Made by a program: the position numbers and the translations under genes
Part shown: positions 2,165 through 55,454 of the stretch, piece after piece
How positions within the stretch are numbered: the first letter of the stretch is position 1
Layout: the number at the start of each line of letters is the position of its first letter
The notes under the pieces: generated by a model
Seen by the model: the letters and a program-made list of their open reading frames with translations, nothing else
The model's database searches: none
Told to the model about the DNA's origin: nothing
Assembly (NCBI RefSeq): GCF_947501425.1
Contig: NZ_CANMVN010000001.1
Span: 62,001 to 126,000, forward strand
Length of the DNA stretch: 64,000 nucleotides
Source of the DNA: an uncultured Psychroserpens sp.
GTDB lineage: Bacteria; Bacteroidota; Bacteroidia; Flavobacteriales; Flavobacteriaceae
Direction of reading: 5' to 3'

Positions 2165-3428
2165 GATTGAATGTGTTGAATAAAAAGAGTGAATTAAAGA
2201 AATAAAAGAAAATAATGCCTTTGTTTCTTACTAAAACCACTTCGAATATAAAAACAAAACATATCAATAGCAAAAAATAAAAATGAAGTTGATCTTTTTT
2301 TAAAATTGCAGTTTTAAAAGAGTAAAATAAATAGGCAACGAAAAATAGAAGCACAAAGACACCATACATAACAAATGTATGAATGTATTGGTTGTGCACA
2401 TTAAAGTTTTCGTACCAATTAGGCCCTAGATTATAAGAAAAATAATAATAGTTAAAATAGCCTTTTGTATCTCCTTGTCCATAACCAAAAAGTACTTTTT
2501 TGTCTTTAACGGTATGGTATAAATTTATTTTTCCTAAAATATACCTTAACTCTAAATCACTAATGTCTGTTTTTTCTTCATAGGTGAAAAGTTTCTTTTT
2601 GGTAAAATCATTTGTAGGCTGAAAAGACGCAATATTGTCATTGAATCTTAAACCGTTTTCAAATCTTTCTTTGATAAATGAAATATTATAAATTAATACC
2701 GCCAGCACCGAAAATGTCAATATGAAACCTATTTTTCTCTTTTTGCTTTTCACTTTAAAAAAGAAAAAAACAATAAACGAAATAAAATTAAAGGCTAAGA
2801 CCGCCTTTGAGGCACAAAGCACCAATCCTGAAATTAGGATGAGAATGGATCCGATATAAAGTGGTTTGTTTTTCAATACCTGTCGGATTTCTTTTGACGA
2901 TATAAAAAACACATAAAACAGAGCAACAGATAAATACATTGAAAAGTATACAGGGTGCTGATCGTACAGTCTTGTAAACTCATGGAATGTGAGACCTTCT
3001 ATAGAGTTATTACTAATGGCCTTAATAATGGCATAGGTTAATAATATTAGAGTGCTTAAAACTGAACTTAAATAAAAGACTCTAGCAACTTTTGATATGA
3101 CTTGTTTAGTAATGTTTGTATTTATCATTACTACTGCAATTAACAGAATTAGCAGAGTTAAATCTAAGTGCTTAAACCCTAAGGCGCTGTTTTTACTGAA
3201 GAAAGCACTAACTACTGTAATGATAAAAAAAACGATTAAGTACCAGGCTTTGAAATTTTTTATTTTATGAATATTTTCCTTTTGAAAAAAAAGAACATTA
3301 AAAGATACTGCCAGAATAATTGCTAAGTTTCCCAAATTAACAGCAAAAGGAAGTGTTGCAGATATCAGGCATAGTAGAAATAACTTAATCTTATCCCTTC
3401 TCTTTAATGTAAGATTAACGAGTTTCAT
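2139..3428 (-). CDS. O-antigen ligase/polymerase family membrane protein (Wzy_C-like)
   Basis: A 429-residue polytopic inner-membrane protein with about eleven hydrophobic segments and one long soluble periplasmic loop (roughly residues 240-330). The loop ends in NVHNQYIHTFVMYGVF, the conserved histidine-bearing signature of the O-antigen ligase/polymerase superfamily, which joins lipid-linked glycans in the periplasm. It overlaps the next gene and is separated from the upstream glycosyltransferase by 1 bp. A second, more divergent polymerase-like protein is encoded at 4593-5789. Which one polymerises repeat units and which ligates them to an acceptor cannot be told from sequence. Confidence 0.8.
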   Translation of the reverse strand: MKLVNLTLKRRDKIKLFLLCLISATLPFAVNLGNLAIILAVSFNVLFFQKENIHKIKNFKAWYLIVFFIITVVSAFFSKNSALGFKHLDLTLLILLIAVVMINTNITKQVISKVARVFYLSSVLSTLILLTYAIIKAISNNSIEGLTFHEFTRLYDQHPVYFSMYLSVALFYVFFISSKEIRQVLKNKPLYIGSILILISGLVLCASKAVLAFNFISFIVFFFFKVKSKKRKIGFILTFSVLAVLIYNISFIKERFENGLRFNDNIASFQPTNDFTKKKLFTYEEKTDISDLELRYILGKINLYHTVKDKKVLFGYGQGDTKGYFNYYYFSYNLGPNWYENFNVHNQYIHTFVMYGVFVLLFFVAYLFYSFKTAILKKDQLHFYFLLLICFVFIFEVVLVRNKGIIFFYFFNSLFLFNTFNLENSNTRH

Positions 3429-48443: not shown

Positions 48444-49118
48444 TTAGTTCATTCGCTTGATTCGACCACCAAGAGTTGTTCTCTCTTTAACATTATCTGG
48501 GTTTCCGTAGATAAAAATATCTCCTCCTGCAGTAACTCTGGCATCCACTGTTTTTGAAGCATTAACATCGGCCTCACCAGCTGCTTTTATAGTAACAGAT
48601 GTGTTTTTTGTTTCAAAAGATTTGCCTTCGTAAATACCTCCAGTATTTAGTGTTATATCTTGAGAAATCGCTTTACCTCTGGTTTCAACAATACCTCCTG
48701 AGACTGCTTTAATGTCTACTTGGTCCACATCTAAACCTATTTTTAAGTGTGCACCTTCTTGGGCTCTGAGTTCAATTTGACTTTGCTCAATAAGTTCGTT
48801 AGATGTGATATAAGCACCTTCGTTACCATCTATGATATCTAAATCTGTGTAATACACAGAAACAAAAGTACGGTCACCATTAAAGATTTTATCTGTATTC
48901 ATTCTTATTTTTAACTTTCCATCTTTATTAACTACCACTACGTCTTCTACATCGTCTCCTGTGATTTCCACTCTAGGCTCGTCAGATTTGATAAGGTTAA
49001 CAACTATAAGGTCATAAACTTTCACTTCATTGAAATCGCCAACACCTTTTTCTTTAGGATTTTGAGCTGTTAATACTGAAGTTACGACTAGTAATGCGAG
49101 GGTTAAAAAAGTTTTCAT
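48444..49118 (-). CDS. head-GIN domain (DUF2807) secreted protein
   Basis: A 224-residue exported protein with signal peptide MKTFLTLALLVVTSVLTAQ. The rest is a right-handed beta-solenoid-like putative adhesin domain (GDFNEVKVYDLIVVNL, then EVDVKAVSGGIVETRG-like strands, QDITLNTGGIYEGKSFETKN, EADVNASKTVDARVTAGGDIFIYG). The terminal GGDIFIYGNPDNVKERT is typical of DUF2807. It is a common periplasmic or surface family in Bacteroidota with no fixed function. It is 83 bp downstream of the acyl-carrier-like gene, with a hairpin between. Confidence 0.88.
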   Translation of the reverse strand: MKTFLTLALLVVTSVLTAQNPKEKGVGDFNEVKVYDLIVVNLIKSDEPRVEITGDDVEDVVVVNKDGKLKIRMNTDKIFNGDRTFVSVYYTDLDIIDGNEGAYITSNELIEQSQIELRAQEGAHLKIGLDVDQVDIKAVSGGIVETRGKAISQDITLNTGGIYEGKSFETKNTSVTIKAAGEADVNASKTVDARVTAGGDIFIYGNPDNVKERTTLGGRIKRMN

Positions 49119-49201: not shown

Positions 49202-49468
49202 TTAATCCATACCAAGGTCATTGGTAAACGCGTGGTGCATCTTTATTTTATGTTTTGGTATTCCAGTAACCTTCTCAATAATTTCACGTATAACGACTTC
49301 AATTTCAAATATTTCTATTGGGTTTTTATTGGAATCGTGTTTAATTGTATCAAATACAAAATCAACTAAATGTTGAACTGTGGCTAAGTTTGCGGCTTCA
49401 TTATCTGGAATTTCAATATCGTAATGATTTTCAACCATCATTATTAATTCAACAGTATCTAAACCCAT
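49202..49468 (-). CDS. acyl-carrier-protein-like protein with permuted halves
   Basis: An 88-residue protein in which ACP elements appear in swapped order. Residues 1-43 (MGLDTVELIMMVENHYDIEI, then PDNEAANLATVQHLVDFV) match ACP helices II-IV, which normally follow the DSL motif. Residues 52-88 (IEVVIREIIEKVTGIPKHKI, then HHAFTNDLGMD) match helix I and loop 1, which normally come first. The chain therefore breaks exactly at the phosphopantetheine motif. The modifiable Ser position is Gly2 on one side and the stop codon on the other, so normal pantetheinylation seems impossible. It is 10 bp after the YbjQ-like gene. Role unknown. Confidence 0.75.
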   Translation of the reverse strand: MGLDTVELIMMVENHYDIEIPDNEAANLATVQHLVDFVFDTIKHDSNKNPIEIFEIEVVIREIIEKVTGIPKHKIKMHHAFTNDLGMD

Positions 49469-49478
49469 TTTTAAAACA

Positions 49479-49775
49479 TTAGGATACGCTTACAGCAGTG
49501 CCAGTTACAGATACCATAGCGTAATTACTTGTCATTAATTCTATTTCAACTTTAATACCTACAATTGCGTTAGCACCAAGTTCTTTAGCATTTTCTTTAA
49601 GTGTTTGAAAAGCGACCTCTTTAGTTTGATCAACACTTTTCTTAAAGTTTTTATAGTATTTAGAGACGCTAAAACCCATAGCTAATTTTTTTTCATTAAT
49701 AGCTACACCTGTTACAATACCTTTATAATCTGTGATTTTAAATCCTTCTATTGAATTTGTTGTTGTTAGAATCAT
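49479..49775 (-). CDS. YbjQ/DUF74 family protein
   Basis: A 98-residue protein with the YbjQ pattern: MILTTTNSIEGFKITDYKGI at the start, GIVTGVAINE, ALENAKELGANAIVGIK-like central helix and strand (here LKENAKELGANAIVGIK), and VSVTGTAV at the end. It forms a pentameric, possibly metal-binding fold in solved members, with no clear function. The family often shows Arg/Tyr-rich central loops; this one is short there. It is followed by the acyl-carrier-like gene after 10 bp. Confidence 0.9.
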   Translation of the reverse strand: MILTTTNSIEGFKITDYKGIVTGVAINEKKLAMGFSVSKYYKNFKKSVDQTKEVAFQTLKENAKELGANAIVGIKVEIELMTSNYAMVSVTGTAVSVS

Positions 49776-52269: not shown

Positions 52270-53745
52270 TTAGTCTATAATTAATTGTTTCGTTGATTTT
52301 CCTTGGTTAGTTATCACCTCAACCACATAAGAACCACTGGATAATTTTGACGTATTTACGGTGTATTCTTTAGAAGTTAATACCTCTTGTCCTAACAGAT
52401 TATACACAGTGACTTTTTCTAATTGTACTGAAGTATCTAACTGAATGGTGAATTGTATTTTTGCAGGGTTTGGGTAGAGTTGTAAAGTTTGTAACACCAG
52501 ATCATTTGTAGATAGAACTGTTGTTAAATCATAAACTCGTACGTGACCTGTAAAACTAAAGCTTCCTAAACTGCCATTATTAAAAGGTGCTCCTGTAGCA
52601 ACTATAGTTCCATTGAAATTTAAACTTACAGATTGTCCTGTTTGATCACCTGCAACTTCCCCATCTATGTCAATACCTATTTGCGTCCAGGTTCCTCCCT
52701 GATTCTCATAAATACGTACATGTCCGGAATTGTTGCCATTTCCATCATTTCCTGATGCTCCTATTGCTACAATAGTTCCATTAGAACTTAACGCTACTGA
52801 TGCTCCTGAGTTATCATTAGAAGCTTCCCCATCTATGTCAACACCTATTTGCGTCCAGGTTCCTCCCTGATTTTCATAAATACGTACATGCCCGGAATTG
52901 CTACCATTACCATCATTCCCTGATGCTCCTATTGCTACAATAGTTCCATTGGAATTTAAACTTACAGATTGTCCTGTTCGATCACCTGCAACTTCTCCAT
53001 CTATATCTGACCCTATTTGTATCCAAGCTCCTCCCTGATTCTCATAAATACGTACATGCCCGGAATTGCTGCCATTACCATCATTCCCTGTTGCTCCAAT
53101 TGCCACAATAGTTCCATTGGAGTTTATACTCACAGAACCTCCAGATAAATCACTTGGATTTTCACCATTAATATCTTGACCTATCTGAATCCATATTCCT
53201 CCTTGATTTTCATAAATACGTACATGTCCTGAATTATTGCCATTTCCATCATTTCCTGATGCTCCTATTGCTACAATAGTTCCATTAGAAGACATTGATA
53301 TACTACTCCCAAAATTATCATCATTAGCGTCTCCATCTATATCTGACCCTATTTGTGTCCAAGCTCCTCCTTGATTTTCATAAATACGTACATGTCCTGA
53401 ATTATTACCGTTTCCATCATTTCCTGTTGCTCCCACTGCAATTATACTGCCATCTGAATTTAATGCCACTGAATTAATTCCATCTCCTGAAGATTCTCCA
53501 TTAATGTCACTTCCTATTTGAGTCCATGAGCCTCCCTGATTTTCAAAAATTCGCACATGTCCAGAATCTAATCCATTCCCGTCATTTCCAAATCCACAGA
53601 TAGCAACAATATCACCATTATCATTTAATGCTATAGAGCTACCTGATACGTCATCAAAAGCTTCTCCGTCTATATCTTGACCTATTTGAATCTGGCTCAA
53701 TCCAAAAAAAGGAAGTATTAAAAAAAGTAGTGTAATGTGTTTCAT
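52270..53745 (-). CDS. secreted FG-GAP-like repeat protein with T9SS type A sorting domain (tandem copy 2)
   Basis: A 491-residue exported protein: signal peptide MKHITLLFLILPFFGLSQ, about six near-identical units of some 65 residues built on IVAIGASGNDGNGNNSGHVR and IYENQGGTWTQIG plus DIDGE, and a C-terminal sorting domain (LQLYPNPAKIQFTIQLD ... SSGSYVVEVITNQGKSTKQL). The GNDGNGxxSGHVR segment is Asp/Asn/Gly-rich and could bind Ca2+ as FG-GAP repeats do. Its signal and sorting regions are almost the same as those of the upstream gene, 11 bp away, showing a recent tandem duplication. Ligand unknown. Confidence 0.9.
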   Translation of the reverse strand: MKHITLLFLILPFFGLSQIQIGQDIDGEAFDDVSGSSIALNDNGDIVAICGFGNDGNGLDSGHVRIFENQGGSWTQIGSDINGESSGDGINSVALNSDGSIIAVGATGNDGNGNNSGHVRIYENQGGAWTQIGSDIDGDANDDNFGSSISMSSNGTIVAIGASGNDGNGNNSGHVRIYENQGGIWIQIGQDINGENPSDLSGGSVSINSNGTIVAIGATGNDGNGSNSGHVRIYENQGGAWIQIGSDIDGEVAGDRTGQSVSLNSNGTIVAIGASGNDGNGSNSGHVRIYENQGGTWTQIGVDIDGEASNDNSGASVALSSNGTIVAIGASGNDGNGNNSGHVRIYENQGGTWTQIGIDIDGEVAGDQTGQSVSLNFNGTIVATGAPFNNGSLGSFSFTGHVRVYDLTTVLSTNDLVLQTLQLYPNPAKIQFTIQLDTSVQLEKVTVYNLLGQEVLTSKEYTVNTSKLSSGSYVVEVITNQGKSTKQLIID

Positions 53746-53756
53746 AGCATGAATAT

Positions 53757-55454
53757 TTAATTTTTTATTAATTGTTTCGTTGATTTCCCTTGATTTGTTG
53801 TCACTTCAACCACATAAGAGCCGCTTGATAATTTAGAAGTATCTACTGTATATGCTTTAGAAGTCAATACTTCTTGTCCTAAGCTATTATAAATAGAAAT
53901 TTTATCTAATTGTACTGAAGGATCTAACTGAATGGTGAACTGAGTTTTAGCTGGATTTGGGTAGAGTTTGAAATTAAATAAGCTATTTTCTTCTAATCCT
54001 AATGAAGCATTCACTAAATCTATAATAAACTGAATCTCTAAAGCTGTAGGACTATTTTCATCTGCATAAGTCCCGTTGTCTAAAGCTGTGGTATAGTTGA
54101 CGCCATCTATTGCTCCAGAAACACCACTAATACTATTTAACTGAGACGCTGTGATGCTGATGTTGTTTATATTTCCAGCAATATCTTCTATAACTTCTTC
54201 AAAAGCAGGTATTGAAAGCAATAAATCATCAATATTAAAAACTCTAGCACGACCATTTGGTATATTAGAATTTCCTCCACTAGCAGGTGAACCAATAGCT
54301 AGAATTGACATATTCTCTGATATATCTATACTATTTCCACTGAGTTCAAAGGTATAATCTCCTAAAATACTTCCTAGTTCTACCCAACTATCATTAATAT
54401 TTTTATAAACATATGTTTTACCAATTGAACTGTTAAAACCTGGAGCACTAGCAATAAGAATTGAGCCATCTAGTGATAAACTTAAACTTTTTCCGAATTT
54501 ATTAAAATTATCTTCTCCTGCTAATGTTTGTCCTACTTGTACCCAAGTATTACCTGTGTATTGATAAACTTTTACATATCCTAATGAAAATGTAGTTTCT
54601 GTATTACCTGTTGAAGCAGCAGCAAAAAATGTATTGCTAGCAGATAAAGCAACTCTTCCTCCAAAACGATAAAAATCACCATCTCCATCAATATCTTGTC
54701 CTTTTTGAGTCCAAACTCCTGAAATATTCTCATAAACTCTTACATGTCCTGCATCATCTCCATTTCCATTATTAGTTTCAGAACCTATGATAATTGTTGA
54801 TCCGTCAGGTGATAAACTTATAGATCCACCATCAAAACTAGATCCAGAATTATCGCCAATTCCTTCTCCTATAATAGAACTGCCTATCTGAGACCATGTA
54901 CCATTAATGTTTTCATAAATATTAACATATCCCTTACTTCCATTAATAATAGCTCCACCTCCTACAGCTAAAATAGAACCATCTGAAGATATGTCAATAC
55001 TTCTACCAAACATATCATTTGAACCTACACCATCAATATCTTGTCCTATTTGTGTCCAAACTCCTGAAATATTTTCATAAACTCTTACATGTCCTGAATT
55101 GAAACCATTTCCGTCATTTTCTGATGCTCCAATAGCAATAATGTTACCGTCAGCAGATAAACTAAGGTTTTCTCCAGACCTATCTACAGCTGCTTCCCCA
55201 TTAATATCCTGACCTATTTGGGTCCAAACTCCAGATATATTTTCAAATACGCGTACTTGTCCAGCTAAATTTCCACCAATATTATCACCTAAACTTCCTG
55301 GGGAACCTACAGCAATAATTGAACCGTCTAAAGATATGCTTATTGCTCTACCGGCTAAATCTGAATAATCTTGACCATCAATATCTTGTCCAATCTGAAC
55401 CTGACCTAATCCAAAAAAAGGAAGTATTAGAAAAAGTAAAGTAATTTTTTTCAT
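53757..55454 (-). CDS. secreted FG-GAP-like repeat protein with T9SS type A sorting domain (tandem copy 1)
   Basis: A 565-residue paralogue of the downstream gene: signal peptide MKKITLLFLILPFFGLGQ, six or seven less uniform propeller-like units (ASENDGNGFNSGHVRVYENI, WTQIGQDIDG), then an extra region of about 60-70 residues (around 415-485, ASQLNSISGVSGAIDGVNYT) absent from the paralogues, and a C-terminal sorting domain (LYPNPAKTQFTIQLDPSVQL). It is the first gene of the pair, and the 620-bp gap upstream must hold its promoter. Probably cell-surface or released; function unknown. Confidence 0.9.
   Translation of the reverse strand: MKKITLLFLILPFFGLGQVQIGQDIDGQDYSDLAGRAISISLDGSIIAVGSPGSLGDNIGGNLAGQVRVFENISGVWTQIGQDINGEAAVDRSGENLSLSADGNIIAIGASENDGNGFNSGHVRVYENISGVWTQIGQDIDGVGSNDMFGRSIDISSDGSILAVGGGAIINGSKGYVNIYENINGTWSQIGSSIIGEGIGDNSGSSFDGGSISLSPDGSTIIIGSETNNGNGDDAGHVRVYENISGVWTQKGQDIDGDGDFYRFGGRVALSASNTFFAAASTGNTETTFSLGYVKVYQYTGNTWVQVGQTLAGEDNFNKFGKSLSLSLDGSILIASAPGFNSSIGKTYVYKNINDSWVELGSILGDYTFELSGNSIDISENMSILAIGSPASGGNSNIPNGRARVFNIDDLLLSIPAFEEVIEDIAGNINNISITASQLNSISGVSGAIDGVNYTTALDNGTYADENSPTALEIQFIIDLVNASLGLEENSLFNFKLYPNPAKTQFTIQLDPSVQLDKISIYNSLGQEVLTSKAYTVDTSKLSSGSYVVEVTTNQGKSTKQLIKN

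Follow-up and report, generated by a model that had tools for sequence, protein, structure and literature searches.

Acyl carrier proteins (ACPs) are among the most common helper proteins of bacteria, and those of the AcpP type (TIGR00517/PF00550) are the closest described relatives of the protein reported here, which appears to share with AcpP the fold, the face of helix II, the D-L-G-x-D loop and, once its domain is rotated, the size. It differs from AcpP in that its helices run in the order II-III-IV-I, its chain ends at the active site and a Gly stands in place of the modified Ser. Helix II is the surface used in ACP-SpoT docking, and PMC3340395 places the docking site for SpoT, FabZ, FabA and PlsX on ACP helix II residues 42-44. 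This helix is conserved in the permuted protein; however, the SpoT partner in that account is an ordinary, modifiable ACP, whereas the permuted protein has no carrier residue. A survey of the ACP literature by title and start of abstract, with most subscription journals outside its scope, returned no permuted ACP, and an earlier description is possible. For the gene arrays in which some relatives lie, the nearest described system is the integron. PMC9024848 reports integrases without cassettes in Bacteroidetes and one complete integron, in Salinibacter.

The permuted protein is encoded in a 64,000-nucleotide stretch of DNA from an uncultured Psychroserpens sp., which we call the window.

Sequence and predicted structure of the window protein

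The gene was found where the earlier note had placed it, with an ATG start and a product of 88 aa (Table 1). Its frame is open for seven codons 5' of the ATG (a 95-aa open frame), and no start codon was read in these seven codons. The protein starts Met-Gly, runs through helices II, III and IV, a linker and helix I, and has the DSL-motif Asp as its last residue. The earlier note had claimed that the chain is a permuted ACP that lacks the pantetheine Ser and stops just before DSL. The cut at the active site held up, with the amendment that the last residue is itself the D of DSL (D88, equivalent to E. coli D35). The carrier Ser of this motif, which sits at the N-terminus of helix II in ACP, is absent as claimed, and its position is occupied by Gly2.

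Table 1. Positions of the permuted gene, its parts and its flanking genes in the window
Feature	Position	Strand	Basis
Permuted, serine-less ACP-like protein, 88 aa	49202..49468	-	ORF with ATG start, stop within coordinates
Residues 2-44, ACP helices II, III and IV	49337..49465	-	Sequence matches and AlphaFold2 helices
Gly2, in place of AcpP Ser36	49463-49465	-	Sequence alignment
Residues 45-52, linker from helix IV to helix I	49313..49336	-	AlphaFold2 and comparison with relatives
Residues 53-88, ACP helix I and loop 1, end FTNDLGMD	49205..49312	-	Alignment and AlphaFold2
Asp88, equivalent to AcpP Asp35	49205-49207	-	Alignment
YbjQ family gene (PF01906), upstream, 10 bp from the window gene	49479..49775	-	
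224-aa gene, downstream of the window gene	48444..49118	-	Directly after YbjQ in most congeners

The claimed permutation is borne out by sequence matches that fall in the reverse of the ACP order. With phmmer, window residues 3-38 align to residues 41-76 of the ACP 2l0q and residues 53-88 to its residues 4-39; the one ACP residue between these two segments is the Ser, residue 40. A second comparison used an HMM of 28 near-identical ordinary ACPs, with the Ser at model position 37, and matched window residues 3-39 to positions 38-74 (39.0 bits) and residues 59-88 to positions 7-36 (9.0 bits). When the C-terminal half was placed first, the rotated protein scored 64.1 bits in a single piece; 40 rotated constructs in which that half had been shuffled averaged 40.8 bits and reached at most 46.3. 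The same test on 25 short proteins (the window protein and 24 relatives, with 40 shuffles each) gave mean scores of 33.5 bits for the best piece in natural order, 58.7 bits after rotation and 35.4 bits for the rotated shuffles, and the rotated score exceeded all 40 of its own shuffles in 25/25 cases. Library models divide the window protein in the same manner: PF00550 matches in two stretches (34 bits against a gathering score of 20.8), TIGR00517 in natural order also in two stretches (61 bits, under its cut-off of 70.45), and the second-best Pfam match, PP-binding_2 (PF14573), covers just one half (residues 2-40, 26.2 bits, under its cut-off of 32). With such half-matches to ACP models, automatic annotation could mislabel these genes as carriers.

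AlphaFold2, given 25 aligned sequences, predicted helices at residues 3-16, 22-25, 31-44 and 53-68 with a mean pLDDT of 88.7 and a pTM of 0.76. In Foldseek comparisons helices II-IV of this model fitted several ACPs at 0.6-0.8 A, including 3ejb (36 columns at 0.6 A) and 3gzl (39 columns at 0.7 A). No Foldseek match of the window model reached E <= 0.001 (best E 0.56) and the alignments span one half, since a sequential aligner can fit only half of a permuted chain. Helix I is identified by the predicted helix 53-68 together with its profile match, and its packing in the ACP position is putative. The phmmer, HMM and AlphaFold2 results agree that the ordinary order I-II-III-IV is missing. Taken together, they leave us close to certain that the window protein folds as a circularly permuted ACP with both ends at the former active site and Gly for Ser. 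A cut at the active site makes this an unusually clean natural circular permutation.

The window genome also encodes an ordinary ACP with the motif ADSLDTVEL (L002, G000:C1:238051-238164), its sole other ACP match at E <= 1.

Relatives, distribution and chain ends

Used alone as the query against genome contigs, the window protein gave 117 candidates, of which none was confirmed. When alignment A2, reduced to the pattern MGLD[STI]VEL[ILV], was used instead, 178 of 200 stretches were confirmed, and the best 80 of these 178 were analyzed. They comprise 24 short forms (81-92 aa), 52 long forms (177-239 aa) and four shorter or broken copies (L095, L107, L112 and L121) that were left out of later counts, giving 76 full-length relatives. 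By record titles these belong to the Bacteroidota, Pseudomonadota, Verrucomicrobiota, Planctomycetota, Gemmatimonadota and Candidatus Melainabacteria, one (L123) being titled only 'bacterium'. The layout common to all 76 rules out a frameshift or sequencing artifact. The earlier note had named a fold unlike ACP, or homologs that are ordinary ACPs split by a frameshift, as outcomes that would speak against it. Neither was found: the structure prediction gave four helices in the expected order, and the relatives share that order as intact genes.

Because the A2 pattern fixes the N-terminus and leaves the C-terminus free, the two ends carry different weight. The chain ends at the AcpP Asp35 position in 73/76 relatives and one residue beyond it in the remaining three. 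Gly occupies the Ser position in 76/76, as the search pattern required, but also in 7/7 full-length, undamaged relatives found without the pattern (L003, L004, L032, L034, L037, L179 and L180, the last two with a profile built from pattern-found rows). Both ends agree in all seven, which start MGLD-x-VE followed by Leu8 in six and Phe8 in L180; L004, L034 and L037 equal L070, L106 and L045 among the 80. Start codons were also considered. In 58/76 relatives the stretch from the preceding in-frame stop to the ATG has no alternative ATG, GTG or TTG, and we rejected a wrongly called start on these grounds and on the reading of the window gene; a longer N-terminus is possible in the other 18/76, where further in-frame starts exist.

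Five further permuted-looking places fit poorly. They are L033 of Persicobacter (a broken copy with the start MGLD), L044, a Novosphingobium protein and two fragments, one of which holds MGMES after an in-frame MHHSIP. L044:1492-1791, on plasmid 1 of Gemmatirosa kalamazoonensis, encodes a divergent 99-aa permuted ACP-like protein, the second in Gemmatirosa. It starts MDSLERVEF, so that a Ser is retained at the cut, and it might be either an intermediate or a permuted ACP with its carrier function intact. The Novosphingobium protein (L191:600-1124, plasmid p2 of Novosphingobium sp. ES2-1) is a 174-aa hypothetical protein with a hydrophobic tail and an apparently degenerate order of helices II-IV then helix I, and is perhaps a far relative. 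In L153, from the genome of L104 (Verrucomicrobium sp. by title), a second permuted-ACP fragment, damaged in appearance, lies just upstream of the intact gene (~2172-2354, minus strand).

The gene is sporadic. Within the genus it was present over its full span in 2/23 genomes. The wider counts are lower bounds, many genomes having had just part of their first-look candidates scored: at least three genomes among 149 of the family (G000, G059 and G085), at least two among 395 of the phylum when a long form was the query (G000 and G234) and, with profile A3 at E 1e-15 and each center genome counted, at least 3 of 240 around a Verrucomicrobiota center, at least 1 of 398 Pseudomonadota and at least 1 of 246 Planctomycetota. 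A third match in the phylum, G441, was rejected as an ordinary, unpermuted ACP. Two scans of viral contigs gave no pattern match. Among the matches listed from phage records (15 of 28) none was a one-piece, full-length match to a permuted protein, and the two best of those listed were two-piece matches annotated acpP.

Conserved residues, selection and phylogeny

Outside the residues fixed by the pattern, Glu13 and Phe16 occur in 76/76 relatives, the window protein having Tyr16. At the other end, the equivalents of AcpP Asp31 and Leu32 are each kept in 75/76, and that of Asp35 is Asp in 69 (otherwise Asn in four and Gln, Glu or His in one each). None of the invariant columns of A3, the alignment of 25 short forms, holds Ser, Thr, Cys or Lys. 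Among the relatives, 74/76 have Ser or Thr at residue 5 and 73/76 have Thr at residue 30, corresponding to ordinary ACP positions 39 and 64, and a hydroxyl at either might conceivably serve as a new attachment site. An ordinary ACP was matched in 14/15 genomes holding the permuted protein, so the carrier job is already filled there.

Most close pairs of relatives are under purifying selection. In 66 pairs of equal length, 75-99% identity and dS below 2.5, dN/dS was at most 0.196 in 62; the other four gave 0.203, 0.31, 0.455 and 0.634, the last at a dS of 0.03. The window gene and its nearest relative, L045 of an uncultured Psychroserpens, differ by dN 0.356 and dS 0.957, a ratio of 0.37 that lies above most pairs. 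L037, whose protein is identical to that of L045, sits in a genome of the window's genus.

A tree was computed from 80 rows (the 76 relatives, the window protein, L032, L179 and L180) and 75 columns; the columns are few and the bootstrap is unsettled. The window protein groups with L045 and two Dokdonia proteins (100/96), and this clade is nested in a starred set (97/96) that has 39 rows and includes 32 long forms. Labeling the tree by short and long form takes 10 changes, at least six by starred branches. The simplest reading would be that the middle region was lost in the window lineage, the direction of change being tentative.

The long form and its middle region

An extra region separates the two halves in 52/76 members. 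It has about 110 aa and lies at the site of linker 45-52 of the window protein. AlphaFold2 modeled the long-form protein L051 from 28 aligned sequences with a pLDDT of 90.6 and a pTM of 0.87. In this model helices II-IV (3-41) and helix I (162-177) of the outer domain flank a middle region with helices at 51-64, 88-99, 108-111 and 138-148 and two strands. Foldseek aligned 97-107 columns of the model to the ACPs 1x3o, 2qnw and 9bxv (TMt 0.61-0.62, E 5.7-9.6). Compared by hhalign with 22 ACPs, the long-form outer domain, once rotated, reached a probability of 99.88 (E 4.2e-32). The middle region against the same 22 ACPs scored 24.1 with an E of 5e-4, yet a probability of 31.6; the best of 20 column shuffles scored 13.2 and the reversed alignment 9.9. 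In this alignment an Asp of L051 stands opposite the ACP Ser. There is thus moderate support, from profile and model, for the middle region as a putative second, degenerate ACP-like domain. A 19-residue Kyte-Doolittle average above 1.6 was found in 8/8 forms of at least 215 aa and in 0/44 shorter long forms, and this hydrophobic stretch could hold the module at the membrane.

Gene neighborhood and repeat-bounded arrays

We clustered 933 called ORFs from the 80 loci, and the top cluster other than the family's own occurred in 5/80 loci. An operon partner was rejected, no neighbor cluster being present in more than 5 of the 80. The ORF caller had omitted the family ORF in 12/80 loci, which makes the neighbors there less sure. 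The genes upstream of 10/24 short forms carry differing Pfam labels in eight cases and none in two. The YbjQ gene neighbors the window gene in this genus; across the family it is no conserved partner. We examined 24 YbjQ loci in 23 genomes of the genus. The permuted gene lies between YbjQ and the 224-aa gene, a putative DUF2807/GIN gene, in two of them; 21 have YbjQ and the 224-aa gene without a MGLDTVEL ORF, and one was unparsed. In 17 of these 21 the two genes are no more than 165 nt apart, which leaves no room for the permuted gene; the other four have a gap of 284-377 nt, part of which is probably a miscalled start.

Seven Flavobacteriaceae loci (L058, L064, L067, L070, L072, L087 and L097) hold arrays of single codirectional genes with a repeat after each. 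Long-form genes are among those arrayed (for example, L058:2531-3124, L067:6001-6594 and L072:6001-6594), and the repeat stands directly on either side of the long-form gene in L058, L067, L072, L087 and L097. It is about 150 nt long, with AAAAAACGTTTTACAACAATGTATAA at its 5' end and GACCGTTG toward its 3' end. A model built from nine intergenic Flavobacteriaceae repeats found 63 copies in 15/80 loci, the nine sources included, every copy on the strand of the gene; block-shuffled loci gave no copies, and the window holds none. In seven loci the longest ORF was codirectional in 35/36 scored intervals, a count that leaves out six intervals without a 50-aa ORF and intervals over 2.5 kb. Stop codons of array genes fall a median of 4 nt into the repeat (quartiles 9.5 and 1 nt in); start codons follow the end of the repeat by a median of 11 nt (quartiles 4.5 and 99.5 nt).

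For some Flavobacteriaceae long-form genes only, this arrangement resembles integron cassettes: one gene and one terminal repeat per unit, in one direction. The likeness extends to a strong fold in one of the two repeats tested, whose stability far exceeds that of shuffled sequences (z -4.1 on one strand and -4.7 on the other); the second was weakly more stable than its shuffles (z -2.5 and -2.1). Unlike in integrons, no integron integrase above the TIGR02249 cut-off was found (0/10 genomes), and the repeats are at most putative attC sites. Weaker recombinase matches occur in 10/10 of these genomes and also in 13/14 control genomes. The arrays are possibly a little-described gene-capture system of Flavobacteriia.

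Possible functions

Phosphopantetheinylation at the normal position would be impossible, as follows from the sequence, and the protein would thus not be a carrier in the usual sense. We propose that it is a non-carrying ACP mimic, an explanation that joins the permuted fold to docking or decoy action and to which, as a whole, we give an even chance. It would present the helix II face (LDTVEL, Glu13 and Tyr16, the last Phe in relatives) and the D-L-G-x-D loop, both read by ACP clients. It may then dock on one such client, whether a phosphopantetheinyl transferase, a fatty-acid enzyme or an ACP-sensing regulator, and act there as an adaptor or competitive decoy. In longer relatives a second ACP-like domain has apparently been added, and in the longest the hydrophobic stretch would possibly anchor the module at the membrane. 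We hold this docking or decoy mechanism slightly short of even odds. The mimic is most likely the right reading; it fits the conserved helix II face, the binding being putative, and the ordinary ACP of the host genomes and the low dN/dS of most close pairs speak for it. Points against it are the lack of a conserved gene neighbor, the Ser kept in the divergent L044 and the comparatively high dN/dS of the window gene. The helix II residues could also be kept for folding alone.

The docking face would equally suit a structural subunit of a complex that has no decoy action. Mitochondrial ACPs serve as structural subunits with LYR-type proteins, and the hydrophobic segment in 8/8 of the longest forms would be in keeping with such a part. 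We nonetheless consider it unlikely, as the family has no conserved partner gene, and its spread as single genes, partly in arrays, better suits a self-contained function. The missing partner gene also bears on the idea that a second chain is required, with halves swapped between protomers or completing another protein and an oligomer as the working unit. Each chain has a single helix I and a single helix II-IV unit, joined in the model by a linker of about eight residues, so domain swapping is allowed; but AlphaFold2 predicts the single chain confidently and linker length differs only modestly among the 25 short forms, and we regard this reading as improbable. A decaying, functionless remnant of an ACP gene or a tandem ACP would account for the sporadic presence in the genus, the broken or shortened copies (L033, L095, L107, L112 and L121), the ratio of 0.37 for the window gene and L045 and the three other pairs above 0.3. 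Against this stand ends and motifs that are the same across phylum-level groups and the low dN/dS of 62/66 close pairs, which make decay very improbable.

Instead, the functional groups might be the chain ends themselves: either the Gly2 amine (once Met is removed) or the carboxylate of the C-terminal Asp would replace the Ser hydroxyl as an attachment point, or the two would be joined head to tail. In line with this, all seven undamaged pattern-free finds start MGLD and end one residue before the Ser position (a count that sets aside L044 and the degenerate Novosphingobium protein), 73/76 pattern-found members end precisely there, and without Met1 exactly one residue, Gly2, fills the Ser place in the rotated alignment. 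However, the last motif residue varies, three members are one residue longer, no activating or ligating enzyme is among the conserved neighbors and the active-site loop may simply be a place where a break is tolerated. We therefore think working chain ends quite improbable, and would grant even less to the fuller version, in which the chemistry has been swapped such that the ends meet at the Ser site as a cofactor-free attachment or joining point that spread as a single-gene module.

If the family is a non-carrying mimic, its members may be natural competitors of ACP-dependent enzymes. With the ACP fold and docking face conserved but the chain cut at the modified residue, the family would be a natural case of docking parted from carrying, and it offers a way to test which contacts of ACP are regulatory.

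Other genes in the window

Positions 52270-55454 hold two adjoining minus-strand genes of 491 and 565 aa. Both have similar repeat units ending WTQIG and similar C-terminal tails, and they are evidently tandem paralogs.
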